From Coniferiporia sulphurascens (taxonomy: Eukaryota > Basidiomycota > Agaricomycetes > Hymenochaetales > Hymenochaetaceae): a stretch of DNA of 64,000 nucleotides. Positions 4,587 through 63,146 of this stretch are shown piece by piece. Both the position numbers and the translations under genes were made by a program. The DNA lies in the NCBI GenBank assembly GCA_002794785.1, contig NBBA01000023.1, positions 186,001-250,000 on the forward strand. Direction: 5' to 3'. Positions within the stretch are counted from its first letter, which is position 1. Each line of letters starts with the position of its first letter. The notes beneath the pieces are model-generated. The model ran no database searches. It worked only from the letters and a program-made list of their open reading frames with translations, and had not been told where the DNA came from.

Positions 4587-4639
4587 TTTTTTTTTTTTTA
4601 AATTTTATTATTCCTGCAGTATTACATAATTACAAGCTG

Positions 4640-4656
4640 CCCCCCCGAAGGGGGGG
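4640..4656 (-). promoter_or_regulatory. 3'-terminal hairpin of LINE copy 4
   Basis: Seven C, GAA (sense TTC) loop, seven G, next to the T-rich tail at 4587-4610. In sense this can fold as an extra-stable C(UUCG)G loop. Confidence 0.7.
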
Positions 4657-4901
4657 CCCTAACTACATAACAACAGAGGCACCCGTCATTGCACAATGCA
4701 CGAAACTGGGCGGGGGCCCTGCTCCCCAAGGGGAGCCAGAGTGGGAAGGGCCCCTATTAGTAAATAGACGGAAGGAGGGAGGAATATGTGTTACTACGGC
4801 CAAGCCAAACGGACGACATCAGGCAAAAGGGGGTAGCTTAGAATAGGAAAGGGAGGGTGAGAGCACTGGCCGGGACATACACAGGAGAGTCCGAAAGGCA
4901 T

Positions 4902-18632: not shown

Positions 18633-20652
18633 TGTCCCAACCATTCCAGGCTACATACCTGTTCTACCACCAGAGGTCTGCCCTTGAGTAGTAACATATG
18701 TAGCCCGGACCCTCCCCCCTACTTCATGGTCGATCCTCGGCACCGGCTCACATGGCACAGATGTACTGACAGTGGAGATATGAACCCAACTCACCCTCTG
18801 GGTGTGCAACTACTATGGCATGCACCCCCCGGACCGCGAGCACGCCCTCCCCCAGTACCCAGGTGAGTCATTCCTTTTTTCACTCCCCTCGGCGCTAGCC
18901 ACCACTCTACTCGTGGCAGGCGACTTCAACTGTCACCACCACACGTGGTCTGAACTCTCAGCCACATGGCAAGATGACTTGGGGGCGCAACCCCTCGATG
19001 ACTTTTTCCATGGGCATGGCCTGACACCTGCTCACATCCCTGACTCTGACTTGAGGCCCGATGGCAATCGCCACCAGTGCCCCATAGACATGATCTGGGC
19101 CCCACCCATGGTCAACCCCGATTCTATCTTAGATTCGGCTACCTCCGACCCCTCACTACTGTCCCACCATGCCATCCTGCATTGGTCGCTGCCATCTTGG
19201 CCCCCACCTCCTGTCCTAAAGACACACCGGCTGCTGCCAGCCGACAAGGAGAAATGGACTGACATCGCCTTCCCCCTCCTCAAAGAAGCCTTCTGACTCC
19301 CAAGGCTCAACACCCATGCCCTGAACATCAAAGCAAAGGTGGTTATTGACTCTATGGTTGCCGCACTCCAACTGTTCACCCGCATCTCGAAACCGTCAAA
19401 AACGGAAGTCCCATGGTGGTCACCCCACTGCAAGACTCTCTTATCCGCAATTATGATGGCCACCACCCCCCTCCAGCATTCATCAGCCCAGTGCGCCTTC
19501 AAAAGGGGCATTAGGACAGCCAAACAACAGTTCTACACCGACCAGGCAGCAGAAGCAGATGCCTCCAACATCTGGAACTGGGCCAAACAAGGCTTAGGCA
19601 ATTGACCCACCCCCATCCCCTCACTCAGACAATGAGACGGATCCTTCACCCAGACAGACACTGAGAAAGGTGAGCTTTTCCAAGAAACCTTCCTTATGCC
19701 CCCTCCACCCCAGGCAGCGACTGACACACCACTACCTCCCAACCAACCAGCTGCCCCACCCATACTCCTATCGGAGCTTACGGGGGCACTGGCCAATACA
19801 TCCAACCTGTCGGCTCCAGGCCTCTCAGGAATAGGTTATTGCCCCCTTAAATGGGTGGTGGATACCTACCCCAATGAGATACTCATGCTCTTCAATGACT
19901 GTCTGCGCTTGGGTCATCACCTGGAGTGCTGGCAGGCAGCAAAAGTCATGATGCTCAGGAAGCTGAACAAGAAGGACCCATTCTCACCACGATCTTACCG
20001 ACCCATCACCCTCGAAGAGACCCTAGGGAAACTCCTAGAAAAAATTATTGCTAACTGGCTCCAGTTCCTCGCTAACACGCGGGACTGGCTGCCACCCAAC
20101 CAGTACGGGGGGCGCCAAGGCCATTCGGTCTATGATGCTGCCCAACACCTCTTACAGATTGCGGAGCGCGCCCACTCAGAGGGCCTTGTCTGCTCGGTCC
20201 TAGCGGTTGACATCCAGGGCTTCTTTGACTTGGTACACCCCCACCTCCTCCACCGACAATTGTTGGATCTCGGCTGCGCCCCGGACATGGCCAGCTGGTG
20301 CCTATCCTTCATGATGGATCGGCAGGTCGCTGTCTCCTTCGACGGCACCACTCTCCCCACTGCCCCCAAACCTGACTTCGGCACCCCACAGGGATCGCCT
20401 GTCTCCCCCATCCTGTCAACGATCTTTGTGGGAATGGTCCTCCGGCACTTTCACCAAGCCGGCACCACAGCCCTCACATACATTGACGACCACTTACTTA
20501 TATGTGTAGGTCCCTCTGTGGCATCCAACTGCTGTGTGCTCGCACACACATACCAACAACTCGACACCCTCTTCAGCACCATTGGTCTCAGCATCAAAGC
20601 CGCCAAGACGAAGTGCCTCCACTTCCACCCCCCCTGGCGACGAACTGGCTAT
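18633..20652 (+). mobile_element. LINE copy 6, left part (subfamily B), 5'-truncated
   Basis: It begins abruptly within the endonuclease domain right after the tail of copy 5 and runs to 20652, where copy 7 has inserted. The rest resumes at 23798. The duplicated GAACTGGCTAT marks the insertion. Confidence 0.85.
18633..20652 (+). pseudogene. LINE ORF2 endonuclease and RT of copy 6
   Basis: Pieces 18802-19296, 19339-19605 and 19696-20652 encode NYYGMHPPD, GDFNCHHHTW, IDMIWAPPMVNPDS, the PP-rich linker, the RT motifs AVDIQGFFDLV and GTPQGSPVSP, and YIDDHLL (Ile variant of YVDD). Stops at 19294-19296, 19603-19605 (CGA to TGA) and about 19633 break the frame. The frame is cut inside LHFHPPWRRTGY by copy 7 and continues at 23809. 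Confidence 0.8.
20642..20652. repeat. Target-site duplication, left, of copy 7
   Basis: GAACTGGCTAT, then the T-rich tail of copy 7. Confidence 0.85.
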
Positions 20653-20702
20653 TTTTTATTTATTTATTTATTATTCCTGCAGTATTACATAATTACAAGC
20701 TG

Positions 20703-20721
20703 CCCCCCCCAAAGGGGGGGG
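20703..20721 (-). promoter_or_regulatory. 3'-terminal hairpin of copy 7
   Basis: Eight C, AAA, eight G (sense TTT loop), next to the T-rich tail at 20653-20672. Confidence 0.7.
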
Positions 20722-20977
20722 CCCTAACTACATAACAACGGAGGCGCCCATCATTGCGCATCACACAAAACTGGGTGGGGGCTCTGCTCCCCGAAGGGTG
20801 CCGAAGTGTGGAGAGCCCCTATTTAGTAGGAAAAGAGGGAAAATCCAGAAGGAGGGATACATATCACTACAAACCAACCAAGCGGGTGAGGGCAGGTTAA
20901 AGTAAGAAGCTTAGAAAAGGAAAGGGAGGGTGAGAGTGCCAGCCGAGACATATCATGGGGAATTCGAAAGGCAGGCA

Positions 20978-22561
20978 TTAGTCAGATGGAAAGGGGGGGA
21001 GCATACCTGTTAGCTCCAAAAGGGCTGGGTCCGAGTCCTGAGTTCAGGGTCCAAGCATACAGCGCATGTATTCCCTTAGGAGGTCCAGGTCCATATCCTC
21101 ATTGGTAGGGTGGCCATCCAGGTCCATTGCAGCAAATGCCAGCCGGATGGCGCCTGCAGCATGGTCAGAGAGGCAGTTAAGGTGCCCTGTCAGCTTTAGC
21201 CAGCGGTGCAAAACCGGGAGGCAGTTTTCATCAGCCCACTCTGAGTGGTGGACTGGGAGAGGGTCCCAAGGTGGCCACACATGCCATATCCATGAATGGA
21301 AGGTACTACAGCCACCAAGGATGTGGGCAGTCGACTGCACAGGCCAGGGGGGGTGGTTGTGCCATCTGCAGTGCGAAATCAGGCCATGCCTGCAGTGGTA
21401 GGCTGAGTCAAAACTCAGCCAGTATCCCCCATAGGGACCGGCACAGCAGAGGACCTGTGTGACTGCAGATAGCTCATTGTGTGGGTGGTCGACCAAGTGC
21501 ATGAGGAGCTTTTGAGGTCGGCGTGAGGGTAGGCCATGGACTGCCAGGTATTTGTTGGCGGTCGAGGCTAGGGGGTGGGCTAATGAGAGCGTCCATTGTT
21601 CCATAAGCGTGCAGACAGTGGCTTCTTTCAGTGCAGAGATGGAGGGTTTAAGGTCAGATGGAGGGAGCTCGGTCGCCAGCTTAGCTTCCCTGTCAGCCCA
21701 TTCATTTCCAGGGATGTCTGAGTGTCTGGGGCACCATACAAAATGAACAGTGAGTTGGGGGTATGAGTCTAGCAGAGTCTCCACACCCGCTTTCCAAATG
21801 TGTAGGAGGTGGGCGCCAGGGGCGGCGGTCCAGGTGCAGAAAAGGTGGAGAGCGGTCAGTGAATTGGACAAAAAGAAGATATCCAATGCGACATGCAGTT
21901 GGGCCAGGAGGCAGTGTGCAACCCAGCCTGGGGCCATGGCAAGAGAGAATTCCTTGGCGTCCATGGCTGTGGTGCAGGTGGGGGATTCCAGTCATCATGA
22001 CCAGAGTTGGGTGTGGCCAAGCATGGGGCAGATGGCCGAGCCCAACTTATTGTCCATGTGGGAGCCATCTGTGAAGACCTGTACGTGGGGGGTGAGGCCT
22101 AGTTGGCGCATGGTGGTCACGAATGACTTTTGGGTGTTGGCGCTCACTGGGGTGACAGGGGTGGTGAAACGGATGCAGTCCTTCATAAAGGCCAGGGGGT
22201 CCGTCCATGGGGGATGTGTGTATGCTGGGACCTGTTGAACCCGGGGGCTCGGACCTGCAACAAAAGTGAAAAGGGTCTATTAGCTATGTTTTTAAAAAGT
22301 TTTTCGGCTGATGGAGTGGGGGGTGCGCCATAGGTGCAGGGAATGGGTCGTCTTTATATATTTGAAATAGAAAGAAAGAGGGGGAACAGAGCAAAGAAAA
22401 TTAGTGGAGTGGGGGGAGGTGCCTTTGAAGACACCTAATATCCATCTGCAGGCTGTGTTTTGCACAGTCTGTAGGCAGTTTACCAAAGTTTTTTGGCAGC
22501 GGCCGTGGTACCATACTGGTGCCCCCCATGCAAGCACTGAGCAGATGCAGGAGGTGTATAG
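20978..22561 (-). pseudogene. LINE ORF2 C-terminal part in copy 7 (RT thumb to RNase H)
   Basis: It starts within the region after RT (YTSCICSVLAWGAPVWY) and runs through FKYIKTTHSLHLW, PHVQVFTDGSHMDNK, the DAKEFSL and DIFFLSNSLTA RNase H blocks, WCPRHSDIPGNEWAD and the Cys/His tail. Stops after CPMLGHTQLWS (about 21996) and after YMRCMLGP (21044) are shared with copy 6, showing recent common ancestry or conversion. The 306-residue frame 21964-21044 is identical in sequence to that at 24615-25535. Confidence 0.85.
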
Positions 22562-23797
22562 GCCAGAATTAAGAGCACCCTTGCAGGACTCAAACAACAT
22601 GTGTACCTTCCTCGGGATATGCAGCGACCGAAACTGCTCCCGCTGTCCTCTACGACATATGGGCGCTATATTGGAGCACTAGGGTAAGGCGTGCCATGCC
22701 GTAGGCACTACCCCACCCATATGGAACAACCCCCCTACCCTACACATTCCCTCCCCGACCATAGAGGTCCTGTAGAGTACTGCTGTGCTTCTGGGAATCA
22801 ACTTAAGCCCATAGTGGGAATTACCCCCACACGAACCGACAGAGGATTTAGTCCTCTGGAGCCACTGAGGGGAACTCTCCACAGCGCTACGGCCTGAGAC
22901 ACTACACTTCAGCATGCCGGGATGCCGACACATGCTCCATGCAGGCCCTTTCCCGTGCCCTGGCACGCGCTTCAGAAACAGCCATTACAGCCGGAATACT
23001 CAGGAACCAAGGTCATGGGACAAGCGCCCAGTCAACCCCCAGCCCCGCTTCTGGATCCGTGATCGTACCAGGATCTCCGTCTCGCATACTCGACCCTGGT
23101 GGCAAGGCTGTCCCAGGGAGTAGAGGATACTAACCACCTCAAGGGGGTCCAACCCACCCAAGAGGCCCATGGTGCCCTGTCACCTTTCAGCATTGGGTGG
23201 TTCTTACCGCCACGCCATGTGTTATGAGCCCCCTATCTCCTTTTAGCATGAGGTGCCATCATCAGAGACCCTTTCAGGAGTTTGGGGGGGCAGTTTTTGA
23301 TTTGTCATGCCAGGGACAACGTGGGCCCCGAGGTACCCAGGAGGGCATTGCTCAGCACCCGAAGGCGTGATCCGAGTTGCCCCAAACCAAGATCACCTGA
23401 CCGAAGTCACCTGCTGCGAGGCAGGGGGTTTCCCCCCCCCCTGTGAGGACGTTAATGTCGTGTCCCCCCCGCCTAGCCCACATACAATGCAGGCCCAACG
23501 AGCACGCCACCCCGAGAGGACAGCGCAGATGCCAGAAGGATGCAAGCTCACCGAGAATCCAACCAGAAGCAACATTTTCGACGGGTTGCCAAGACCGCCG
23601 GTGAGCTCTGTGCCCATTCCCCGCCACATTATGGTGACCAACGACCAACCCCAGCGCACCAGGGTGAGTCGGAACCTTCTCTCGTATGATGCCCAGTCCC
23701 AGAGAGTCCAGACAAGGTCGGGTAGCTGCAACTTCCCCCCAGCCAACCCCAGTTGCAAAACCGAGATGGTGGTGGTAAGAGGACAAGAAGGATGGAT
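22562..23797 (-). mobile_element. Sequence C, copy C1 (unknown 1.2 kb 5' module)
   Basis: It has no similarity to the LINE ORFs I can recognise. It begins with a block nearly matching the LINE 5' terminus (26 of 30 bases). It is colinear but diverged relative to C2 (54652-55352 plus 60070-60630). Conserved segments include sense CCTGAAAGGGTCTCTGATGA, CCATGGGCCTCTTGGGTGGG, GAGGACTAAATCCTC and CATATCCCGAGGAAGGT. No convincing ORF runs through it in sense, so it may derive from a non-coding transcript. Its 3' end is ...CCTGCAAGGGTGCTC then TTAATTCTGG, joined to LINE CCTATACACC. Confidence 0.7.
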
Positions 23798-23808
23798 GAA
23801 CTGGCTAT
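23798..23808. repeat. Target-site duplication, right, of copy 7
   Basis: GAACTGGCTAT, identical to the left copy, preceded by the 5' end of copy 7. Confidence 0.85.
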
Positions 23809-25601
23809 GAAGGCTGGGACACAGCCAGGGTTCAGGTCGACCCCAACACCCTGATCCACCCCTCAACCCCCTCCAGTGGCTGGGGATATGGTGGGACCCA
23901 GGCCTCTCCTTCAAGCCCCATGTTGAGCGCATGTGCTCCAAGGGACTCTCCACCCTTGCCACCCTCCGCATTTTAGGCAACACACAACACGGTATTTCGG
24001 CCCTCCTCCTCCACCGCCTATACACCTCCTGCATCTGCTCAGTGCTTGCATGGGGGGCACCAGTATGGTACCACGGCCGCTGCCAAAAAACTTTGGTAAA
24101 CTGCCTACAGACTGTGCAAAACACGGCCTGCAGATGGATATTAGGTGTCTTCAAAGGCACCTCCCCCCACTCCACTAATTTTCTTTGCTCTGTTCCCCCT
24201 CTTTCTTTCTATTTCAAATATATAAAGACGACCCATTCCCTGCACCTATGGCGCACCCCCCACTCCATCGGCCAAAAACTTTTTAAAAACATAGCTAATA
24301 GACCCTTTTCACTTTTGTTGCAGGTCCGAGCCCCCTGGGTTCAACAGGTCCCAGCATACACACATCCCCCATGGACGGACCCCCTGGCCTTTATGAAGGA
24401 CTGCGTCCGTTTCACCACCCCTGTCACCCCAGTGAGCGCCAACACCCAAAAGTCATTCGTGACCACCATGCGCCAACTAGGCCTCACCCCCCACGTACAG
24501 GTCTTCACAGATGGCTCCCACATGGACAATAAGTTGGGCTCGGCCATCTGCCCCATGCTTGGCCACACCCAACTCTGGTCATGATGACTGGAATCCCCCA
24601 CCTGCACCACAGCCATGGACGCCAAGGAATTCTCTCTTGCCATGGCCCCAGGCTGGGTTGCACACTGCCTCCTGGCCCAACTGCATGTCGCATTGGATAT
24701 CTTCTTTTTGTCCAATTCACTGACCGCTCTCCACCTTTTCTGCACCTGGACCGCCGCCCCTGGCGCCCACCTCCTACACATTTGGAAAGCGGGTGTGGAG
24801 ACTCTGCTAGACTCATACCCCCAACTCACTGTTCATTTTGTATGGTGCCCCAGACACTCAGACATCCCTGGAAATGAATGGGCTGACAGGGAAGCTAAGC
24901 TGGCGACCGAGCTCCCTCCATCTGACCTTAAACCCTCCATCTCTGCACTGAAAGAAGCCACTGTCTGCACGCTTATGGAACAATGGACGCTCTCATTAGC
25001 CCACCCCCTAGCCTCGACCGCCAACAAATACCTGGCAGTCCATGGCCTACCCTCACGCCGACCTCAAAAGCTCCTCATGCACTTGGTCGACCACCCACAC
25101 AATGAGCTATCTGCAGTCACACAGGTCCTCTGCTGTGCCGGTCCCTATGGGGGATACTGGCTGAGTTTTGACTCAGCCTACCACTGCAGGCATGGCCTGA
25201 TTTCGCACTGCAGATGGCACAACCACCCCCCCTGGCCCGTGCAGTCGACTGCCCACATCCTTGGTGGCTGTAGTACCTTCCATTCGTGGATATGGCATGT
25301 GTGGCCACCTTGGGACCCTCTCCCAGTCCACCACTCAGAGTGGGCTGATGAAAACTGCCTCCCGGTTTTGCACCGCTGGCTAAAGCTGACAGGGCACCTT
25401 AACTGCCTCTCTGACCATGCTGCAGGCGCCATCCGGCTGGCATTTGCTGCAATGGACCTGGATGGCCACCCTACCAATGAGGATATGGACCTGGACCTCC
25501 TAAGGGAATACATGCGCTGTATGCTTGGACCCTGAACTCAGGACTCGGACCCAGCCCTTTTGGAGCTAACAGGTATGCTCCCCCCCTTTCCATCTGACTA
25601 A
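23798..25601 (+). pseudogene. LINE ORF2 end of copy 6 (RT thumb, RNase H, Cys/His tail)
   Basis: Frames 23931-24584 and 24615-25535 encode ...LAWGAPVWYHGRC, YIKTTHSLHLWRTPHS, HVQVFTDGSHMDNKLGSA (first RNase H Asp), KEFSLAM (Glu), SNSLTALHLF (Ser-Asn where active copies have Ser-Asp), WCPRHSDIPGNEWADREAK, then CRWHNHPPWP...AHILGGC. TGA stops at 24582-24584 and 25533-25535 replace CGA. Loss of the third catalytic Asp suggests an inactive RNase H in the lineage shared with copy 7. Confidence 0.8.
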
Positions 25602-25902
25602 TGCCTGCCTTTCGAATTCCCCATGATATGTCTCGGCTGGCACTCTCACCCTCCCTTTCCTTTTCTAAGCTTCTTACTTTAACCTGCCCTCACCCGCTTG
25701 GTTGGTTTGTAGTGATATGTATCCCTCCTTCTGGATTTTCCCTCTTTTCCTACTAAATAGGGGCTCTCCACACTTCGGCACCCTTCGGGGAGCAGAGCCC
25801 CCACCCAGTTTTGTGTGATGCGCAATGATGGGCGCCTCCGTTGTTATGTAGTTAGGGCCCCCCCCTTTGGGGGGGGCAGCTTGTAATTATGTAATACTAC
25901 AG

Positions 25903-25920
<18 letters not shown>
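24017..25920. repeat. Right arm of the inverted repeat
   Basis: It is the 3' part of copy 6, the reverse complement of 20653-22561 with only scattered differences. Confidence 0.85.
25858..25876 (+). promoter_or_regulatory. 3'-terminal hairpin of LINE copy 6
   Basis: Eight C, TTT, eight G, before TGTAATTATGTAATACTAC and the tail. Confidence 0.7.

Positions 25921-25937
<17 letters not shown>
25904..25937 (+). repeat. (AAT)n tail of copy 6
   Basis: About eleven AAT/ATA units. Tandem-repeat tails instead of pure poly(A) are usual for several LINE clades. Confidence 0.8.
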
Positions 25938-31956: not shown

Positions 31957-31986
31957 CATCCTTCTTGACCAGTAACCACCACCATC
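31957..31986 (+). promoter_or_regulatory. 5' terminal block of LINE copy 12
   Basis: Same CATCCTTCTTGACCAG start as copies 4, 5 and 17, although this is subfamily B. Confidence 0.55.
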
Positions 31987-32014
31987 GACTAGTGTGGGCA
32001 GCTAAAACTCCCCC

Positions 32015-34066
32015 ATGTCGAACCCAGGTGACTACAGGAACACTCTTCATTGTACAAACCGAACCAACCCCCCACCCACCCCATCGGCCAATGCCGATCC
32101 AGACCGGGTTGCCAGGATGGCCGCCAACTGGGCCTCCGCCGGCGCCGCAAGGTACAATATGGCCGCACCAACCACCCCCAATAACAACCCCCCCCTAGAC
32201 CAGACGTCCTCCCCAGACGTACTCGCCCCTTCCCCAGCCATTGTCGACTCCCAAATGATCTCCGCCTACGACTTCACCACCCAAGTGCGTGCGGAATCAA
32301 GGGCAGCATCCCACATCGGCTCCCCAGCTGCCTTGGTAGGGTCGACACATGGTTCCATTGAAACAGGTGAAACAGCCCCAGGAATGGTGGTTGACCCCCA
32401 TACCCCCCCTCAACAGGTAGGAGGCACAAGCCTTGAGTGGAAACGCTCCTCTGCCACCATGTCACCTCTCACCCCAAGAGGACCCCCCGCACGACAACAT
32501 GAACAGTACACTGCAGGGTTCATGTACTCCCTCACCCACACCTTGGACGATTTCGACCAGCAAACCAGGGATGCCAACACCGAGATGATCGACATCAAGG
32601 CTGTGCAATTTTTGGGCGACCTCTTCTGGAACGTTCAACAGACACTGGCAAATATAGAGCAAGACAGGACATACCCCGACCACATCATTCACCGCAATGC
32701 GGTGATGGCCTACAACTTTGCGAGGGAGGGGGCGGTAATAGCCCTCCCGGAACCCTTCGCCCCAGCTTGCCCCCCCCAAAGGGCCCCGGCCACCACCGGG
32801 ACCCCAGGCACCGCCCCCGTGACCCCAGAAATGAGGGCACTGACAGATGCAGTCAAGTGCCTGACAACTGATGTAGATTCCATTTCACATCAGATGGCCT
32901 CCATCAGCTCTAGGCCCGCCCCCCGTCAACAGCAACAACAACAACAACAACAGCAACCCGCCCCACAGGCCGCCACCCAGGCCGCCCCCACCTCCTATGC
33001 GCAAGTCGCTACAGCTGCAGCCCCCCCAACAACCAGCAACCCATCTCTGGTGGCCCCAGCCGCTGGAGCAGTCATCAACCCAGTGCAGAAAAAGAAGAAA
33101 CGCCAGAGGAAGGTGCCGCCACCACCCACAATGTATGCCAAGGACCCAACCTTGGTCCTCACCCCCACAGTCGGCATTCGGGCTGAGAACCAGAAGTCAG
33201 CAATGGCCCTAACAAAAACGTCCCGTGAGTTCTTCGCTTCCCTCCCCACTGCAGACCAAGTCCCGGTCCTGTCCTCCTCCTACAACATAAAGGGGAACAT
33301 TGTGACTACTTTTGCGGTGCGCCCATCCTCGGCTAACCCGACCATGGAAATGATCATTGATCGTCACTCCATGGCCTATGCCTCCCATATGCGCACAGAG
33401 TGCATTGCGGCGGGAATTAACATCCCAGCCACATTTTCCCTAACCCCCTCCAGAGTCCGCCCCAGGTCTGCACTATGCATCTCCATGGTGCCCTGCAAGG
33501 ACTTTCTGTTCGGCCAAAACGGACACACCATAAACAAGAAGGCCCTCATGGCTGAAATCCGGCACAACCCGGCACTCCGCAACCTCGACTTTGTAGTCAC
33601 CCCTCACTTCGCTGCCACCGAGGATCACCTGCCGGCACTCGACAGATGCCCAGTGGTATTCTCCTTCGTCGACCCCGATGGTTCCATCCGTGAGCGCCTC
33701 CTCAAGAGGCCATGTGTCTGGATGTTCAGATCCACCCTCTGCCTCTCAGTCCCACCCGTCCGCCCCACCCTCACACAATGTGAACGGTGCCAGGGCCTCG
33801 GCCACGGAACCAAGGGCTGCCGAGCCCAGCCATGCTGCGCTGACTGCGTGGGAGCTCACCTCTCCTGCAACCACCGCAAATCGTGCACCCACTGCACAAC
33901 GGACGCAGTGCCAGAAGGCGACACATGCCCACACCCCCGCCTCTGCAACAACTGCAAGGGCGACCACCCCGCCACCCTGCCGGCCTGCCCCAAGAAGAGG
34001 CGTTACTGCCAAATTGAAGAGGCCCTCGCTGCCGACCCTACTGACGACCAGATGGAGGAAATATGA
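32015..34066 (+). CDS. LINE ORF1, Gag-like RNA-binding protein, intact (683 aa)
   Basis: It is the only complete ORF1 in the window. The ATG at 32015 follows a 58-base 5' UTR and matches the start in copies 4, 5 and 17 (MSN...YRN). Order: variable N-terminus; conserved block FMYSLTHTLDDFDQQ and GDLFWNVQQTLANIEQD (residues about 170-220); glutamine run at about 304-315; basic KKKKRQRK near 360; a conserved fold with SLPTADQVPVL, a histidine-bearing DRHSMAYASHM segment and ISMVPCKDFLFGQNG; then knuckles CERCQGLGHGTKGC (from 589), CADC...CTHC and CNNCKGDHPATLPAC (644-658). It should coat the element RNA and assist target priming. Whether it is expressed is unknown. Confidence 0.85.
   Translation: MSNPGDYRNTLHCTNRTNPPPTPSANADPDRVARMAANWASAGAARYNMAAPTTPNNNPPLDQTSSPDVLAPSPAIVDSQMISAYDFTTQVRAESRAASHIGSPAALVGSTHGSIETGETAPGMVVDPHTPPQQVGGTSLEWKRSSATMSPLTPRGPPARQHEQYTAGFMYSLTHTLDDFDQQTRDANTEMIDIKAVQFLGDLFWNVQQTLANIEQDRTYPDHIIHRNAVMAYNFAREGAVIALPEPFAPACPPQRAPATTGTPGTAPVTPEMRALTDAVKCLTTDVDSISHQMASISSRPAPRQQQQQQQQQQPAPQAATQAAPTSYAQVATAAAPPTTSNPSLVAPAAGAVINPVQKKKKRQRKVPPPPTMYAKDPTLVLTPTVGIRAENQKSAMALTKTSREFFASLPTADQVPVLSSSYNIKGNIVTTFAVRPSSANPTMEMIIDRHSMAYASHMRTECIAAGINIPATFSLTPSRVRPRSALCISMVPCKDFLFGQNGHTINKKALMAEIRHNPALRNLDFVVTPHFAATEDHLPALDRCPVVFSFVDPDGSIRERLLKRPCVWMFRSTLCLSVPPVRPTLTQCERCQGLGHGTKGCRAQPCCADCVGAHLSCNHRKSCTHCTTDAVPEGDTCPHPRLCNNCKGDHPATLPACPKKRRYCQIEEALAADPTDDQMEEI
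32926..32956 (+). repeat. CAA/CAG microsatellite coding polyglutamine in ORF1
   Basis: CAACAGCAACAACAAC-type repeat coding about 11 Gln. The equivalent tracts at about 475-500, 3012-3042 and 63608-63640 differ in length. Confidence 0.75.
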
Positions 34067-37000
34067 TAGAGATGATCTCTGTCTTGCAGTGGAACGCTGC
34101 CCGCTCCCTAGCGGCAATACATTCCCTAATCCCTGTCCTTACAACTGACCCCTCCCCCCCACACCTAATTCTTATTCAGGAACCCCCCTGGTACCAAATA
34201 GGTCTGCAACCATCACTCACCGACCCAACCGGCACCCTGATTTGCAACATCCCCACCATCCTGGGCTACACACCAGTCCTACCACCAGAGGCTTGTCCTC
34301 GGGTAGTCACGTATGTATCCAGGGCCCTCCCCCCCACCTCTTGGTTGATCCTCGGAGCCGCATCCTATGGCACTGATGTACTGATGGTGGAGGTACGATC
34401 CCAACTCACCCTCTGGGTGTGCAACTACTACAGCATGCACCCCCCGGACAGAGAGAATGCCTCCCCCCAGTACCCCGGTGAGTCCTTTTTATTCTCACTC
34501 CCCTCGGTGCTAGCCACCACTCTACTCGTGGTGGGCAACTTCAACTGTCACCACCACACGTGGTCCGATTTCTCCATCCCACGATGGGACGACTTGGGGG
34601 CACAACCCCTCGATGACTTCTTCTGCGGGCATGGCCTTTCGCCTGCTCACCTTCCTGACTCTGATTCATGACCCGATGGTAACCGCCATCGGTGTCCCAT
34701 TGACATGATCTGGGCCCCACCCGCGGTCAACCTGGACTCGATTTTAGACTCGGGCTCCTCCGACCCCTCACCACTGTCCGACCACGCCATGCTGCGCTGG
34801 TCGGTGCCATATCGACTCCCCCCTCCTGTCCTAAAGACATGCCAGCTTCTTCCGGCCGACAAAGAGGAATGGACCGAAATAGCCTTCCCTCTCCTCAAAA
34901 CAGCCTTCGGTCTCCCGGGGCACAGCACCCATACCCTGGACATCAAAGCTAAAGCGGTTATCGACTCCATGGTCGCTGCCCTCCAGCCATTCACCCGCTT
35001 ATCAAAGCCATCAAAAACGGAAGTCCCATGGTGGTCACCCCACTGCAAGACCCTCTTATCTGCCATTACAATGGCAACCACCCCCCTTCAGCGTGCATCA
35101 GCAAGAAGAGCCTTTAAAAGAGGCGTCAGGACGGCAAAACGACAGTTCTACGCCAACCAGGCATTGGAAGCAGACGCCTCCAACATCTGGAACTGGGCCA
35201 AGCGTGGCCTAGGCAACCGACCCACCCCCATCCCATCGCTGAAAAAGTGAGATGGTACCTTCACCCAAATGGACAAGGAGAAAGGTGAGCTCTTCTGCGA
35301 AACTTTCTTCATGCCCCCCCCACCCAGAGCAGCGGCCAACACCCCACCGCCACCACCACAACCAGCTGCCCCGCCCATACTCCTTTCGGAGCTTATGGGG
35401 GCACTGTCCGACACATCCAACTTGTCAGCGCCAGGCCTCTCAGGAATAGGGTACCGCCCCCTGAAATGGGTCGTGGACACCTACCCTGACGAGATTCTTA
35501 CACTTTTCAATGACTGCTTGCGTTTGGGGCACCACCCCGAGTGCTGGCGGGCAGCAAAGGTGGTAATGCTCAGGAAGCCAAACAAGAAGGACCCCTTTTC
35601 GCCACAGTCATACTGGCCCATCACCCTCGAGGAAACCCTAGGGAAACTCCTCGAAAAAGTTATTGCTAACAGGCTCCAGTACCTCGCAAATATGAGGGAC
35701 TGGCTGCCACCCAACCAATACGGTGGACACCAAGGCCATTTGGTCTATGATGCCGCCCAACACCTCTTACAGATCGCGGAATGCACCCACTCAGAGGGCC
35801 TTGTGTGCTCGGTCCTTGCAGTCAACATTCAGGGCTTCTTCGACTCGGTACACCCACGACTCCTCCACCGACAACTGTTAGACCTCGGCTGCACCCCAGA
35901 CATGGCCAACTGGTGTCTGTCTTTCATGATGGACCAGCAGGTAGCTGTCACTTTCGACGGCACCACCCTCCCGACCACCCCTAAACCCGACCTTGGCACC
36001 CCCCAGGGATCGCCAGTCTCTCCCATCCTGTCAACAATATTCGCAGGGGTGGTCCTCCAGCGCTTTCACCAAGCCAGCACCACTGCCCTAGCATACATTG
36101 ATGACCACTTACTAATATGTGTAGGACCTTCAGTGGCATCCAACTGCCACGAGCTCGCACACGCCTACCAACAACTCGACACCCTCTTTGGCACCATTGG
36201 TCTCAACATTGAAGCCGCCAAGACAGAGTGCCTCCATTTCCACCCCCCTCAGCGACACACAGGCTACAATGGCTGGGACACCGCCGGCATACAGGTCGAC
36301 CCCAACACCCTCATCCGCCCCTCAATCCCACTCAGGTGGCTGGGGATATGGTGGGACCCAGGCCTCTCCTTCAAGCCCCACGTTGAGCAAATGCGCTCCA
36401 AGGGGCTCTCCACCCTCGCCACACTACGCATCCTGGGTAACACCCAACGCGGCATATCGGCCCTCCTACTCCGCCGCCTATACACCTCCTGTGTTCGCTC
36501 AGTACTTTCATGGGGAGCACCAGTATGGTACCATGGCCGCTGCCAAAAAACACTGATAAACCGCCTCCAGGCTGTACAAAACATGGCCTGCCACTGGATC
36601 CTGGGCGTCTTCAAAGGTGCCTCCCCCCATTCCACTAATTTCCTTTGCTCCATTCCCCCTCTTTCATTCTATTTCGAATATATAAAGACTACCCATTCTC
36701 TTTGCCTCTGGTGCACCCCTCACTCTATTGGTCAAAAAATTTTTAAAAACATAGCTAACAGACCCTTCTCCCTTTCTCTGCAGGTCCGAGCCCCCTGGGT
36801 TCAACAGGTCCCTGCATACACACATCCCCCATGGATGGACCCACTGGCCTTCATGAAGGGTAGAGTCCAGTTTACCACCCCCATCACCCCGGTTAGCGCG
36901 GACACCCGGAAGTCGTTCGTAACAGCCACTCGCCAACTAGGCTCCACCCCCCATGTCCAGGTCTTCACCGACGGCTCCTGCATAGACAATAAGTCGGGTT

Positions 37001-38060
37001 CGGCCATCTGTGCAATGCTGGGCAACACTCGTCTCTGGTCACGCTGACTGGAGTCCCCCACCTGCGCCACAGCCACAGACGCCGAGGAGTTCTCCCTCAC
37101 TACGGCCCCGGGCTGGGTAGCACACCGTCTCCCATCGCAACTGCATGTCGCATTGGACATCTTCTTTCTGTCCGATTCGCTGACTGCTCTCCACCTTTTC
37201 TGAACTTGGGCCACCGCTCCTGGCACCCACCTCCTCCACATCTGGAAAGCAGGTGTGGAGACTCTGCTGGATTCGTACCCCCAACTCACCGTCCATTTCA
37301 TATGGTGCCCCGGACACTCGGACATCCCCGGAAATGAATGGGCTGACACAGAAGCAAAGCTGGCGACTGAGCTCCCCCATCTGACCTAAAACCCTCCACC
37401 TCCGCACTAAAAGAAGTGGCCGTCTGCACCCTCATGGAACAATGGACACTCTCACTAGCCTGCCCCCTTGCCTCAACCGCCGATAAGTACCTGGCAGTCC
37501 ATGGCCTACCATCATGCCGACCTCGAAAGCTCCTGATGCATTCGGTCGACCACCCACGCAGCGAGCTATCCGCAGTCGCACAGGTCCTCTGCCATGCTGG
37601 TCCCTATGGGGGATACTGGCTGAGTTTTGACTCAGCCTACCACCGCAGGCACGGCCTGATCTCGCACTGCAGATGGCACAACCACCCCCCATGGCCAGCA
37701 CAGTCAACCGCCCACATCCTTGGCAGCTGTAGCACCTTCCACCCATGGATACAACACATGTGGCCACCTCGGGACCCTCTCCCAGTCCACCACTCAGAGT
37801 GGGCTGATGAAAACTGCCTCCCGGTTCTGTGCCGCTGGCTAAAGCTAACAGGGCACCTTAACCACCTCTCTGACCACGCCGCAGGCGCCATCCGACTGTC
37901 TTTCGCAGCGATGGACCTGAACGGACACCCCACCGATGAGGATATGGACTTGGACCTCCTACAGGAATACATGCGTCGTATGCTCAGACCATGAACCCAG
38001 GACTCGGACCCAGCCCTTTTGGAGCTTTCAGGTACACTTCCTCCCTTCCCACTCGAGTAA
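34063..38060 (+). pseudogene. LINE ORF2 of copy 12: endonuclease, RT, RNase H, nearly complete
   Basis: It starts MIEMISVLQWNAARS. The endonuclease has LILIQEPPWYQ and NYYSMHPPD but GNFN for GDFN. RT motifs in frame 35269-37047 are KPNKKDPFSP, AVNIQGFFDSV (Asn replaces the first catalytic Asp), GTPQGSPVSPIL and YIDDHLL. RNase H starts HVQVFTDGSCIDNKSG near 36960. Stops: 34669-34671, 35248-35250, 37045-37047, about 37202 and 37992, all TGA where relatives read CGA. A one-base loss near 37380 shifts the frame. The natural end is LPPFPLE, stop 38058-38060. Both catalytic substitutions indicate long inactivity despite the intact ORF1. Confidence 0.8.
34065..34083 (+). promoter_or_regulatory. Start-codon hairpin of ORF2, copy 12
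   Basis: GATAGAGATGATCTCTGTC pairs over 8 positions with one T-G wobble. It begins at the G of the ORF2 ATG, and ORF1 stop and ORF2 start overlap as ATGA (34063-34066). Confidence 0.6.
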
Positions 38061-38311
38061 AGCCTGCCTTTCGGAACCCCACATGATACGTCTCGGCCGG
38101 CGCCCTTGCCCCCCCTTTCCACTTCTAAGCTTCCTACTTTAACCTGCCCTCAACTGCTTGGTTTGTTCGTAGTGATATGTATCCCTCCTTCTTGCAGTTT
38201 CTCTTACTAAATAGGGGCTCTTCACACTTCGGCACCCCTCAGGGAGCAGAGCCCCCACCCAGTTTGGTGCGATGCGCCATGACGGGTGCCTCCGTTGTTA
38301 TGTAGTTAGGG
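38061..38311 (+). other. 3' UTR of LINE copy 12
   Basis: C/T-rich 3' UTR with the shared GTTGTTATGTAGTTAGGG segment before the hairpin. Confidence 0.7.
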
Positions 38312-38328
38312 CCCCCCCTTTGGGGGGG
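38312..38328 (+). promoter_or_regulatory. 3'-terminal hairpin of LINE copy 12
   Basis: CCCCCCCTTTGGGGGGG, then TGTAATTATGTAATACTG and the tail. Confidence 0.7.
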
Positions 38329-38385
38329 CAGCTTGTAATTATGTAATACTGCAGGAATAATAATAAAAAATAAAAAAAATAAAAA

Positions 38386-54651: not shown

Positions 54652-55352
54652 CATCCTTCTTGTCCTCTTACCACCACCATCTCTGGTTTTTACTGGGGGT
54701 CATCTGGGGGTGCATTGCAGCAACCCATACTCTGGTCTGGTATACTACTGGGTCGATACAAGAGAAGGCTACCGACTGCACACCGGTCCTCTGGAGTGCA
54801 CACTCACTGGTCGTCCAGTCGCTGTAACAGCAGTTTCGAAGACGCAAAAGGGGCTCTAGGGCTCGCCAGAGGGTATGCAACCTGTCGTTAATGTTGCATT
54901 GGGGGGATAACTCGGTGAGGATGATTCCTCTTCACGTCTGCCACACCCTCTCGGGGTGTGGTGCCTTGACTGGTCTGCTGGTCGTGCCCTTGGGCCCGGT
55001 CAGTGGGGCAAGGTGCAAAGTGCGCCAGTCGGGGGGGGAACACGATGATAACGTTCCCATGGGAGTCGGGAAACCCTCTGCCCACTAGTGGTCAGTGAAA
55101 ACCGGGAAACCTCGGGTTCGGTGAAAGTCGGGTCTAACCTTCCGGGGTTGATGCACTTGCATTGAGGCCGTGATGACCGGCATGTCATACCAAAAACTGC
55201 TCCCCAAATTCCTGAAAGGGTCTCTGATGATGGCACTAGTTGCTAAAAGGAGATAGGGGTCTCATAACACAGGGTGTGGCGGTAATAACCATCCGACGCA
55301 GAAATGCAACAGGACACCATGGGCCTCTTGGGTGGGTCGGGCCCCCTTGAGG
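54652..55352 (+). mobile_element. Sequence C, copy C2, 5' part
   Basis: It begins CATCCTTCTTGTCCTC, as C1 does, and is colinear with C1 to the block CCATGGGCCTCTTGGGTGGG. It is diverged from C1 by many substitutions and indels. No sense-strand ORF is shared with C1. Confidence 0.7.
55339..55352. repeat. Target-site duplication, left, of copy 20
   Basis: GGGCCCCCTTGAGG before the T-rich tail. Confidence 0.9.
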
Positions 55353-55411
55353 TTTTTATTTATTTATTTATTTATTTTATTATTCCTGCAGTATTACATA
55401 ATTACAAGCCG

Positions 55412-55428
55412 CCCCCCCGAAGGGGGGG
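55412..55428 (-). promoter_or_regulatory. 3'-terminal hairpin of LINE copy 20
   Basis: Seven C, GAA, seven G. Confidence 0.7.
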
Positions 55429-55678
55429 CCCTAACTACATAACAACGGAGGCGCCTGTCATTGCACATCGCGCCAAACTGGGCAGGGGCTCTGCTCCCGG
55501 AGGGTGCTGTCGTGTGAAGAGCCCCTATTTAGCTAAGAAACGGAGAGAGGGAGGGATACATATCGCTACGAACAGAAACAAGCAGTTGGGGGCAGGTTAA
55601 AGTAGGAAGCTTAGAAGTGGAAAGGGAGGGCGAGAGCGCCAGCCGAGACGTGTCATGTGGGATACCGAAAGGCTGGCT

Positions 55679-58600
55679 TTACTCGAGTGGGAAGGGAGGG
55701 AGTGTACCTGAGAGCTCCAAAAGGGCTGGGTCCGAGTCCTGGGTTCGGGGTCCAAGCATACAACACATGTAATCCTGTAGGAGGTCCAAGTCCATATCCT
55801 CGTTGGTGGGGTGCCCATCAAGGTCCATCGCAGCAAAAGACAGCCGGATGGCGCCTGCAGCACATTCTGAGAGGCGGTTCAGGTGCCCCGTTAGCTTTAG
55901 CCAGCAGCGCAGAACCGGGAGGTGGTTTTCGTCAGCCCACTCAGAGTGGTGGACTGGGAGAGGGTCCCGGGGTGGCCACATGTGTCGTATCCATGGGTGG
56001 AAGGTGCTACAGCCGCCAAGGATGTGGGTGGTTGACTGTGCTGGCCAGGGGGGGTGGTTATGCCATCTGCAGTGTGAGATCAGGCCATGCCTGCGATAGT
56101 AGGCTGAGTCAAAGCTCAGCCAGTATCCCCCGTAGGGACCAGCGTGGCAGAGGACTTGCGTGACTGCTGATAGCTTGCTGCATGGGTGGTCAACCGAATG
56201 TGTGAGGAGCTTTCGAGGTTGGCGTGATGGTAGGCTGTGGACTGCCAGGTATTTATTGGTAGTCGAGGCGAGGGGGCGGGCTAGTGAGAGGGTCCATCAT
56301 TCCATGAGAGTGTGGATGGTGGCTTCTTTTTGTGCGGAGGTGGAAGGTTTGAGGTCGGATGGGGTGAGCTCCATTGCCAGCTTTGCCTCCGTGTCAGCCC
56401 ATTCATTTCCAGGGATGTCCGAGTGTCCGGGACACCATATGAAATGGATGGTGAGCTGGGGGTATGAGTCTAGCAGGGTCTCCACACCCACTTTCCAAAT
56501 GTGGAGGAGGTGGGCGCCAGGAGCGGCGGCCCATGGTCGGAAAAGGTGGAGAGCAGTCAGCGAATTGGACAGAAAGAAAATGTCCAATGCGACACGCAGT
56601 TGCGCTGGGAGATGGCGTGCTACCCAGCCTGGGGCCGTGGCGAGGGAGAACTCCTTGGCGTCCGTGGCTGTGGCACAGGTGGGGGACTCCAGTCGGCATG
56701 ACCGGAGTCGGGTGTTGCCCAGCATCGTGCAGATGGCCGAGCCCGACTTATTGTCTATGCGGGAGCCGTCGGTGAAGACCTGGACATGGGGAGTGGAACT
56801 TAGTTTGCGTGTGGCTGTTACAAATGACTTCCAGGTGTCGGTGCTAACCAGGGTGATGGGGGTGGTAAACTGGACTCTGCCCTTCATGAAAGCCAGTGGG
56901 TCTGTCCATGGGGGATGCGTGTATGCCAGGACCTGTTGAACCCAGGGGGCTCGGACCTGCAAAGAAAGGGAGAAGGGTCTGTTAGCTATGTTTTTAAATA
57001 ATTTGTGACCAATAGAGTGAGGGGTGCGCCATAGGTGAAGGGAATGGGTAGTCTTTATATATTCAAAATAGAAAGAGAGGGGGGGAACAGAGCAAAGAAA
57101 ATTAGTGGAGTGGGGGGAGGCGCCTTTGAAGACGCCCAGGATCCAGCGGCAGGCCGTGTTTTGTACAGCCTGGAGGCGGTTTACCAAGGTTTTTTGGCGG
57201 CGGCCGTGGTACCATACCGGTGCTCCCCATGACAGGACGGAGTGGATGCAGGAGGTGTAAAGGTGGTGGAGGAGTAGGGCCGATATGCCGCGTTGGGTGT
57301 TGCCCAGAATGCGGAGTGCGGTGAGGGTGGAGAGCCCCTTGGAGTGCATTCGCTCAACATGGGGCTTGAAGGAGAGGCCTGGGTCCCACCATATCCCTAG
57401 CCACCTGAGTGGGATTGAGGGGCAGATGAGAGTGTTGGGGTCGACCTGTACACCAGCGGTGTCTCAGCTGTTATAGCCGATGCATCGCTGAGGGGGGTGA
57501 AAATGGAGGCACTCTGTCTTGGTGGCTTCGATGTTGAGACCGATGGTGCTGAAGAGGTTGTCGAGTTGCTGGTAGGTGCGTGCGAGCTTGCGGCAGTTGG
57601 ATGCCACTGAGGGTCCTACACATATAAGTAAGTGGTCGTCAACGTATGCTAGGGTGGTGGTGCTGGCTTGGTGAAAACGCCAGAGGACCACCCCTGCGAA
57701 TATTGTTGACAGGATGGGGGAGACTGGCAATCCCTGGGGGTGCCGAGGTCGGGTTTAGGGGCGGTTGGGAGGGTAGTGCCATCAAAGGCGACAGCTACCT
57801 GCTGATCCATCATGAAGGACAGACACCAGTTGGCCATGTCTGGGGTGCAGCCGAGGTCCAACAGTTGTTGGTGGAGGAGTTGTGGGTGCACCGAGTCGAA
57901 AAAACCCTGAATGTCAACTGCAAGGACCGAGCACACAAGGCCCTCTGCATGGGCGTGTTCCGCTATCTGTAGAAGGTGTTGGGTGGCATCGTAGACCGAA
58001 TGGCCTTGGCACCCCCCATACTGGTTAGGTGGCAGCCAGTCCCTCGTGTTCACGAGGTACTGGAGCTGGTTAGCGATTATCTTTTCGAGTAGTTTCCCTA
58101 GGGTCTCCTCAAGGGTGATGGGCTGGTATGATTGCAGCAAGAAGGGATCCTTTTTGTTTGGCTTCCGTAGCATTACCACTTTTGCCACCCGCCAGCATTT
58201 GGGGTGGTGCCCCAGATGCAAGCAGTCGTTGAAAAGAGTAAGAATCTCGTCGGGGTAGGCGTCCACCACCCATTTCAGGGGGCGGTAACCTATTCCCGAG
58301 AGGCCCAGTGCCGACAAATTGGATGTATCGGACAGTGCCCCCATAAGCTCCGAAAGGAGTATGGGCGGGGCAGCTGGTTGGGGTGGTGGCAGCGGTGTGT
58401 TGGCCACTGCCTGGGGTGGGGGGGGCATGAAGAAAGTTTCGCGGAAGAGCTCACCTTTCTCCTTGTCTGTTTGGGTGAAGGTACTGTCTTGCTGTTTCAG
58501 CGATGGGATGGGGGTGGGTTGGTTGCCGAGGCCACGCTTGGCCCAGTTCCAGATGTTGGAGGCATCTGCTTCTGATGCCTGGTCGGCGTAGAACTGCCGT

Positions 58601-59675
58601 TTGGCTGTCCTGACACCCCTTTTAAAGGCTCTTCTTGCTGATGCATGCTGGAGGGGGGTGGTTGCCATTGTAATGGCAGATAAGAGGGTCTTGCAGTGGG
58701 GTGACCACCATGGGACTTCTGTTTTCGATGGCTTTGAGATGCAGGTGAATGGTTGGAGGGCGGCAACCATGGAGTCGATGACCGCTTTAGCTTTGGTGTC
58801 CAAGGTATGGGTGGTGTGCCCCGGAAGGTCGAAGGCTGCTTCGAGGAGAGGGAAGGCTATTTCGGTCCATTCCTCTTTGTTGGCTGGGAGTAGCCTGCAT
58901 GTCTTTAGGACCGGAGGGGGGGTCGAGATGGCACTGACCAGCGCAGAATGGTGTGGTTGGACAGTGGTGAAGGGTCGGAGGAGCCCATGTCTAGTATAGA
59001 GTCGGGGTTGACCGCGGGTGGGGCCCAGATCATGTCAATAGGGCACCAGCAGCGATTGCCGTCAGGCCATGAGTCAGAGTCCGGAAGGTGAGCAGGCGCC
59101 AGGCCATGCCCACAGAAGAAGTTGTCGAGGGGTTGTGCCCCCAAGTCATCCCATTGTGGGACAGAGAAGTCGGACCACATGTGGTGGCGATGGTTGAAGT
59201 CGCCCACCATGAGTAGTGTGGTGGCTAGTATCAAGGGGAGTGAAAATAAGAAGGACTCACCTGGGTACTGGGGGGAGGCATTCTCTCAGTCCGGGGGGTG
59301 CATGCCATAGTAGTTGCACACCCGGAGGGTGAGTTGTGATCGTACCTCTACCGTCAGTACATCGGTGCTGTAGGATGCAGCTCCGAGAATTGACCATGAG
59401 GTGGGAGGGAGGGCCTTGGATATATATGTGACTACTTGGGGGCGAACCTCTAGCAGTAGGACGGGTGTGTATCCCGGGATGGTAGGGACGTTGAAGACCG
59501 GGGTGCCTGTCGGGTTGGTGAGTGATGGTTGCAGGCCTATTTGGTACCAGGGGGGTTCCTGTATAAGAATTAGGTGTGGGGGGGAGGGGTCAGTTGTAAG
59601 GACAGGGATTAGGGAATGTATCACTGCTAGAGAGCGGGCGGCGTTCCACTGCAAGACAGAGATCTTCTCTATCAT
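55679..59675 (-). pseudogene. LINE ORF2 of copy 20, full extent
   Basis: Start MIEKISVLQWNAARS at 59675. Pieces: 59675-59286 (LILIQEPPWYQ, NYYGMHPPD), 59234-58905 (MVGDFNHRHHMW, intact GDFN, and IDMIWAPP), 58803-57649 (linker and RT: KPNKKDPFLL, AVDIQGFFDSV, GTPRD after a one-base loss in the GTPQGSP motif), 57730-57464 (YVDDHLL) and 57349-56297 (thumb and RNase H: HVQVFTDGSRIDNKSG, DAKEFSL, SNSLTALH, WCPGHSDIPGNEWADTEAK). C-terminus to LPPFPLE, 55679. RT catalytic Asp are kept, RNase H Asp3 is Asn. Single-base indels dominate, consistent with a relatively young insertion. Confidence 0.8.
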
Positions 59676-60055
59676 ATTTCCTCCATCTGGTCATCGGTAG
59701 GGTTGGCAGCAAGGGCCTCTTCGATTTGGCGGTAGCGCCTCTTCTTGGGGCAGGCTGGCAGGGTGGTGGGGTGGTCGCCCTTGCAGTTGTTGCAGAGGCG
59801 GGGGTGTGGGCATGTGTCGCCTTCGGGCACTGCGTCTGTCACGCAGTGGGCGCACAATTTGCGGTGGTTGTGGGTGAGGTGAGCTCCTGCACAGTCAGCG
59901 CAACATGGTTGGGCTCGGCAGCCTTTGGTTCCATGGCCGAGGCCCTGGCACCATTCACATTGCGTGAGGGTGGGGTGGACGGGTGGGACTGAGAGGTGGA
60001 GGGCAGATCCGAACATCCAGACACGCAGCCTCTTGAGGAGGCGTTCGCAGATGGT
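59672..60055 (-). pseudogene. LINE ORF1 C-terminal stub (copy 20)
   Basis: An open frame covers ERLLKRLRVWMFGSALHLSVPP, the knuckles CEWCQGLGHGTKGC, CADC...CAHCVTD and CNNCKGDHPTTLPAC, ending at 59672 with an ATGA overlap to ORF2. The remainder is lost by 5' truncation. The open frame continuing to 60364 upstream reads into sequence C and is fortuitous. Confidence 0.75.
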
Positions 60056-60069
60056 GGGCCCCCTTGAGG
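60056..60069. repeat. Target-site duplication, right, of copy 20
   Basis: GGGCCCCCTTGAGG, identical, after which C2 continues GTGGTTAGTA as in C1. Confidence 0.9.
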
Positions 60070-60630
60070 TGGTTAGTAAGAGGCGCTCCCTGGCGGCTGT
60101 AAAAAGCGTCGGGGTCCACCCCTCTGCGACATGGAGATTCTGGTATGCTGCGGATCCAGAAGCGGGAAAACCCTTAAATGTGGGCCCCGAGTATTCCCCA
60201 TGGAGTGTGTCGGGGTAACACCTGATGCTGATGTGGGTTCTGAAGCGTGTGCCGGGGCATGGGAAACTCAGTGCGCTGAGCGGGCCATAGTGGCAGGGGA
60301 TAGTTCCCTCTGTTGGCTTGAGAGGACTAAATCCTCCGTGGGTTCTAATGGGGGTAATTCCCATTCGGGCTTAAGTTGATTCCTTGACACGCAGTGGCGC
60401 TTCACATCACCAATCGGGTACGGGGGGGCGTGAGTCCAGGCGGCTGGGGGTGGTGGGGTAGTGCCTATGGCGCCCCGACCCTCACACTACACCTTTGGTG
60501 CGTCGGGTAGCTCTAATCTCACCTTTAGGCCTGTGCGGCATGAAGGACAGCAGGAGGGGTTTGTCGGGCCCCATATCCCGAGGAAGGTGCATGCGTATGT
60601 TGGGCCCTGCAAGGGCGTCCTTTAGTCAGG
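60070..60630 (+). mobile_element. Sequence C, copy C2, 3' part
   Basis: It resumes after copy 20 and is colinear with C1, including GAGGACTAAATCCTC, GGGCTTAAGTTGATTCC, GGTGGGGTAGTGCCTA and CATATCCCGAGGAAGGT. Its 3' end CCTGCAAGGGCGTCC then TTTAGTCAGG aligns with the C1 end. LINE sequence CCACCGACAACTG follows. Confidence 0.75.
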
Positions 60631-62826: not shown

Positions 62827-63077
62827 AAAGCCAGCCTTTCGGAATCCCACATGATACGTCTCGGCCAGCGCTCTCACCCCCCTTACCTCTTCTAAGCTTC
62901 TTATTTTAACCTGCCCTCAACTGCTTGGTTTGTTTGTAGCAATATGTATCCCTCCCTCTATCATTTTCTCTACTAAATAGGGGCTCTTCACATGTTGGCA
63001 CCCTCCAGGGAGCAGAGCCCCTGCCCAGTTTTGTGCAATGCGCCATGACAGGCGCCTCTGTTGTTATGTAGTTAGGG

Positions 63078-63094
63078 CCCCCCCTTCAGGGGGG
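63078..63094 (+). promoter_or_regulatory. 3'-terminal hairpin of copy 19
   Basis: Seven C, TTCA, six G, then TGTAATTATGTAGTACTG and poly(A) at 63129-63146. Confidence 0.7.
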
Positions 63095-63146
63095 CAGCTT
63101 GTAATTATGTAGTACTGCAGGAATAATTTAAAAAAAAAAAAAAAAA

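Follow-up and report, generated by a model that had tools for sequence, protein, structure and literature searches.

SINEs are non-autonomous elements that are mobilised by LINEs, and RIME and NARTc of trypanosomatids are likewise non-autonomous, with a 5' end, the Pr77 hallmark, in common with an autonomous LINE. Pr77 comprises 77 nt and acts as a promoter. Other chimeras arise when the reverse transcriptase of a LINE jumps from the LINE RNA to a second RNA, as described for U6-L1 and related mammalian sequences (PMC2104539). In Magnaporthe grisea/oryzae, the element MINE joins the sequence WEIRD to the LINE MGL, and the report on it gives 28 joint sites in 33 elements (PMC2104539). Among open-licence papers, no second fungal case besides MINE could be recognised by title or by the opening of the abstract.

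Here we describe composites of LINEs with a repeat, which we call C, starting from a window of 64,000 nucleotides (the whole stretch analysed) of the Coniferiporia sulphurascens genome. Like SINEs, C is non-autonomous and appears to be mobilised by LINEs, but its own 3' end is not in common with the partner LINE, and C gains a LINE 3' end only via the joint. In the manner of RIME and NARTc, the 5' end of C is common with autonomous LINEs (its first 31 nt match the 5' ends of full-length LINEs of families A and W at 26 of 30 nt); however, this segment spans about 30 nt instead of the 77 nt of Pr77, the 3' joint of C is variable, and the composites lack a fixed internal structure amplified as a unit. 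As in U6-L1, the LINE reverse transcriptase would have jumped to a second RNA, but there the acceptor is a known cellular RNA, whereas C is repeated, diversified and provided with a LINE-like 5' end (PMC2104539).

The closest known system by architecture is MINE (PMC2104539, PMC3978060), as the earlier note on this DNA had recognised. According to the available sections of the MINE report, both systems combine a noncoding 5' part of about 1.1-1.3 kb with a 5'-truncated LINE 3' part in the same orientation, both show flanking duplications and variable joints with recurrent sites, and in neither was a solo copy found (PMC2104539). In the C composites, the 5' part is non-LINE, apparently noncoding and has fixed ends, and it is joined directly to a LINE part of variable start. 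The two systems differ at the joint, since the context is YYGC with a GC overlap in C and GCC*A/U in MINE, for which those same sections report no microhomology (PMC2104539); the 68 mapped C joints do not share the consensus GCC*A/U. The sharing of a 5' end of about 30 nt with a LINE also sets C apart from WEIRD as described there (PMC2104539).

A single insertion with two parts

Positions 20653-23794 form a single minus-strand insertion, composed of a LINE 3' part and C (Table 1). The window contains the word GAACTGGCTAT at two places only, 20642 and 23798, where 0.03 occurrences would be expected. The earlier note had taken it for a perfect 11-bp duplication around an insertion of 20653-23797; the single unit is real and the repeated word holds, but the duplication is in fact 14 bp long, GA[C/T]GAACTGGCTAT, with one C/T transition between its copies, and bases 23795-23797 belong to its right copy and lie outside the insertion. 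With the insertion removed, the flanks span the junction in alignments with ten other LINEs of the window at 72-87% identity.

The LINE part can be aligned with other LINE 3' ends over its whole length, and the hairpin and tail announced for one end of the insertion are present. The remainder had been described as an unrelated 1.2-kb module, and this was borne out: within the window, the only LINE sequence that C matches is a segment of about 30 nt at LINE 5' ends, and its one other match there is a second C copy. That C might be the ordinary 5' region of a LINE is ruled out, as the 6,420-nt reference LINE has a 686-codon open frame in its 5' region and only about 30 nt in common with C.

Table 1. 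Positions of the features in the window, with strand
Feature	Positions	Strand	Remarks
Target LINE, 5' half	18635..20652	+	begins at LINE nt 2294
Left target-site duplication copy	20639..20652	.	14 bp; one C/T difference from right copy
LINE family A 3' part, 5'-truncated (LINE nt about 4520-6420)	20653..22561	-	ends in 3' hairpin and tail
LINE 3' hairpin and AT-rich tail	20653-20724	-	
Joint	22562..22563	-	bases GC attributable to C or LINE alike
C 3' end: GNRA-loop hairpin GAGUCCY-GCAA-GGGYRCUC and tail UUAAUUCUGGC	22562..22591	-	
C, type C1, 1,233 nt	22562..23794	-	full length but for about 32 nt missing internally when compared with other copies
C 5' end, 31 nt	23764..23794	-	resembles 5' ends of full-length LINEs
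Right target-site duplication copy	23795..23808	.	
Target LINE, 3' half	23809..25926	+	24016-25911 99.6% identical to inserted LINE part
Full-length LINE, coordinate reference, 6,420 nt	31957..38376	+	RT domain found
Second composite: 5' part of C2-type element	54652..55353	+	
LINE nested in that C2 element	55354..60055	-	15-bp duplication 55339-55353 / 60056-60070
Second composite: 3' part of C2-type element	60071..60630	+	
Second composite: LINE 3' part	60631..63146	+	joined at LINE nt 3909

The insertion lies within a LINE, and the two inverted LINE arms thus formed (20653-22561 and 24016-25911) are 99.6% identical, while the next best of 40 scored genomic copies reaches 89%. We first read this as a young LINE re-inserted into its own source. 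Such a reading is disfavoured by CpG decay, which is heavy and common to both arms (35-36% of CpG kept, compared with 46-58% in four further copies of family A, a fifth being at 36%) and ordinary in the C of the window. Because of this difference, gene conversion between the inverted arms is the likelier explanation of their identity, although not a proven one. A second composite, of C2 type and split by a later LINE insertion, occupies positions 54652-63146 of the window.

The LINEs carry endonuclease and reverse-transcriptase domains and fall into families A and W, which are 72% identical to each other, and B, which is 68-70% identical to both (2.6 kb of B compared). In Coniferiporia weirii, a basidiomycete of the order Hymenochaetales, 12 hypothetical proteins match ORF2 of a window LINE at 53-70% identity over 49-99% of the length of this ORF2. 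Among the places listed (the first 100 for C-type 5' ends and for LINE 5' ends), LINE and C ends crowd in one stretch per large contig (contig C1 at about 1.3-1.6 Mb, C3 at about 2.0-2.3 Mb, C7 at about 1.0-1.3 Mb), as expected of LINE-rich centromeres.

C is a diversified repeat family

In the 39.35-Mb assembly of 31 contigs, C constitutes a repeat family of about 1,268 nt. A search returned at least 46 matches (40 of 287 candidates scored), the full-length ones other than the window copy being 84-91% identical to it. In order to count copies, we used end and core patterns with up to 3 mismatches, for each of which the reversed-pattern control gave 0. The further copies that the earlier note had envisaged proved numerous: across the assembly there were 72 C 3' ends, 31 3' ends of a second type (C2), 126 core matches and 254 C-type 5' ends, next to 257 LINE 5' ends of the A/W pattern. 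A pattern for a third, LINE-like type of 5' end gave 86 matches, a figure on which we do not rely; many of them have 2-3 mismatches and are scattered outside LINE clusters (e.g., G000:C1:4061813 and C10:957063).

All 44 C-type 5' ends (up to 3 mismatches) in the DNA examined, in which some loci overlap, open into C-like sequence. Of the 72 copies, 57 had ample upstream sequence and 35 of these a recognised C 5' end, with a length of 1,264-1,275 nt in 29 of the 35. Later insertions interrupt several of the copies for which no 5' end was recognised; the 5' truncation that we had at first ascribed to C30-type copies was dismissed, as several of them are really interrupted by nested insertions. 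C shows no sign of coding capacity, its longest open frame being 115-214 codons (mean 153), compared with a mean of 136 and a 95% point of 195 in shuffled sequence. A comparison with Rfam (E up to 5) found nothing in C; in the LINE part it gave a single hit, at E 1.1, that fell short of its cut-off.

The types C1, C30, C38 and C2 are 63-87% identical in five comparisons (C1 and C2 about 66%), and at least two diverged lineages, C1 and C2, have many similar copies each. In the copies L036 and L042, and in L033 where covered, roughly the first 960 alignment columns are C1-like and columns 1,081-1,320, approximately, are C2-like. From these mosaics it appears that C lineages recombine, by jumping or by conversion. 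At 94 CpG-type sites, C copies retain 22-59% CG, the remainder being TG or CA, and at the other sites the identity among 31 C1-type copies averages 96%. This pattern indicates CpG hypermutation of C and LINE copies, either by methylation or by a RIP-like process.

The two ends of C

The last 30 nt of C form a hairpin with a GCAA loop, followed by a tail of 10-11 nt, and the position of this 3' end is constant to within a base. All seven hairpin pairs are retained in 70 of the 72 ends, a conservation that is partly imposed, given that the selecting pattern covers most of the hairpin; between C types, some pairs are altered on both sides. In a consensus fold of 17 copies, the conserved 5' end pairs with two conserved 3' blocks, although these pairs hardly vary and prove nothing. 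The C 3' end is unlike LINE ends, and in the window the likeness between C and LINEs is confined to the 5' segment of about 30 nt, which, by analogy with Pr77, could possibly act as a promoter.

Joints between C and LINEs

We read the sequence past all 72 C 3' ends (in 30 loci, in two sets of 13 and 16 regions and in 15 short regions, some overlapping). In 71, C passes straight into a LINE in sense orientation; the remaining end, L035, is followed by about ten bases and then by the inverted tail of another LINE. Six further C2-like or variant ends were all joined to a LINE; of the 31 C2-type 3' ends, two were read past the joint, plus one more diverged. LINEs are densely nested in this region, and a LINE might have come to lie beside C by chance, through nested insertion or an artefact of assembly. 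This is extremely improbable, in that a single duplication surrounds both parts of the window insertion and the fixed end of C meets a sense LINE in 71 of 72 cases.

Three near-identical duplicate loci (L031, L063 and L074; 97.6-100%) were dropped, which left 69 joints. The composites in question, L008 with L013/L031, L050 with L063 and L040 with L074, are near-identical on different contigs and apparently represent recent segmental duplications. The partner belongs to family A in 23 joints, W in 25 and B in 20, with one lacking an assigned family. The 68 joints that could be mapped fall on 57 LINE positions (counted as distinct when more than 2 nt apart) between nt 8 and 6,274 of 6,420, with 58 of the 68 beyond nt 4,200. 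Eight positions are used 2 to 4 times each; at two shared ones, 5922 and 6112, distant-family alignments stop short of the joint, and without them the count is 59 positions. A single ancestral deletion that left one joint genome-wide is ruled out by this spread.

The LINE bases upstream of the joints were decided by a vote among homologues, of which there were nine at most and fewer at some joints. Both bases at -4 and -3 are pyrimidines in 63 of 68 joints, against an expected fraction of 0.335; G occupies -2 in 41 and C occupies -1 in 51, so that the typical context is YYGC, with C or T as the next base in 64 of the 68. Where C ends in GC, the LINE also has GC in 37 of 70 joints (0.067 expected), 36 of these 37 being YGC. 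Accordingly, the acceptor RNA would end in GGC and overlap the LINE by 2 nt, or else it would end in GG and the enzyme would stop at YYG^C. Template jumping by the R2 reverse transcriptase is reported to require a short cDNA 3' overhang, and 2 nt rescue defective enzymes, a requirement with which a 2-nt overlap at the C joints would agree (PMC8857657). In seven plain LINE truncations, hand-picked from 31 tail-anchored duplications, YY occurs in 0 or 3 depending on the last-base convention, too few to judge the specificity of the motif. No A-run separates C from the LINE at the joints read, and there is thus no hint that the acceptor RNA carries a poly(A) tail.

Flanking duplications were sought at the 21 loci with both a C 5' end and a LINE tail within the stretch examined. 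Duplications of 12-15 bp (score at least 9) were found at 8 of these, and in 0 of 420 mismatched pairs used as a control; none was detected at the other 13, where some of the tails used probably derive from other nested LINEs. Nine further copies, shortened or interrupted but close enough to a LINE tail, were put to an uncontrolled search over 65 boundary offsets per locus. Among these nine, L020 and L054, both with a 5'-shortened C, are clearly flanked by duplications, which would be expected of an enzyme that at times halts before the C 5' end; L033 has a possible duplication (13 bp, one mismatch) and L057 an A-run only.

C lineages and LINE families

The kinship of C copies was compared with the LINE families of their partners, with CpG-type columns removed and L035 left out. 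In 12 of 40 cases a C copy and its nearest relative are joined to one and the same LINE family, compared with a shuffled mean of 13.9. On the C tree, the label B is clustered (1 of 500 shuffles as low), which reflects that older C types go with family B, while W and A show no such clustering (as low in 150 and 500 of 500); taken together, the three labels require 15 changes, whereas shuffled labels require 18.0 on average and as few as 15 in 10 of 200 shuffles. Judging from these trees, C kinship appears tied to LINE family at most weakly, albeit not wholly independent of it.

Family A (twice) and family W have joints at position 4609, A and B at 5312, and W and A at 5508. The LINE parts of such cross-family pairs are only 70-78% identical, which argues that the joints are separate events. 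Same-position pairs within one family have LINE parts with 82-88% identity over the aligned portion. This is no more than members of a family show in general, and taken alone it would be compatible with old common descent. The C parts, however, are not nearest kin in any of the five same-position pairs tested, nor in one pair 3 nt apart. Joint sites thus recur, and amplification as a unit was not seen apart from the three duplicated loci.

These data bear on the proposal that the composite is one non-autonomous element, with a LINE 5' end, a foreign middle and a LINE 3' end as in NARTc, whose joints were moved by internal deletions during its amplification. The LINE resemblance at both ends, the eight recurrent positions and the identity of the same-family pairs could be accommodated by it. 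Yet the 57 joint positions stand against a C 3' end that hardly moves, three LINE families are involved with positions common to different families, and the C parts of the same-position pairs tested are not nearest kin, so that we consider this proposal very unlikely.

Probable template jumping and possible sources of C RNA

We are highly confident that the insertion is a bipartite chimera produced by template jumping during LINE retrotransposition, a reading grounded in what the sequence displays directly, namely the joints and how widely they spread, the sharply defined 3' end of C, the common orientation and the duplications. The earlier note had spoken of a non-autonomous parasite or a snapshot of template jumping; the joints strongly favour the jump, and the parasite is a matter of interpretation. 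In the proposed mechanism, the LINE reverse transcriptase would begin at the 3' end of the LINE RNA, halt at an internal YYG^C site and resume on the 3' end of a separate, structured and apparently non-polyadenylated C RNA, which it would often copy to the 5' end, and the chimeric product would then integrate with a target-site duplication. At least three LINE families would repeatedly have joined C in this way. New full-length C insertions could yield new C RNA if the LINE-like 5' segment is a promoter. We infer, accordingly with this scheme, a free C RNA, its 3' end, its promoter and its self-propagation.

Among the sources of C RNA that we considered, a lineage parasitic on LINEs would rank first. 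Tentatively, C may represent a retroparasite of a new class, namely a lineage of noncoding RNA whose only means of spread is to act as an acceptor of template jumps, and we hold this possibility with somewhat less than even confidence. Such a C, devoid of a LINE 3' recognition sequence, might offer a hairpin-bounded 3' end to the reverse transcriptase, and its copying as far as a LINE-like 5' end might allow each new copy to be transcribed again; it might also have outlasted LINE families and switched between them. The same joining mechanism could also have acted on the RNA of a host noncoding gene missing from the assembly, with the composites as dead by-products, an origin that we likewise hold less likely than not, slightly behind the parasite. 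The conserved blocks and 3' hairpin of C speak for it, and the authors of the MINE report favoured a functional noncoding RNA for WEIRD, which also lacks a solo copy (PMC2104539). Three observations point instead to the parasitic lineage: L035 is the only one of the 72 ends without a demonstrated LINE partner; C1 and C2, with their many similar copies, would need at least two missing genes; and a host gene leaves the LINE-like C 5' end unexplained.

Altogether, the C composites add to MINE several diverged C lineages, three LINE partners, a 5' end of about 30 nt common with LINEs and a conserved 3' hairpin, in a basidiomycete host with at least 103 C 3' ends. More than 70 natural jump sites become available for the rules of LINE template jumping in vivo, with regard to sequence context, overlap length and the 3' structure of the acceptor. 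Being larger than MINE, diversified and found in a different phylum, the C system suggests that acceptors of template jumps can be lineages and not accidents. If true, the retroparasite reading would also account for the absence of a solo WEIRD gene in Magnaporthe.
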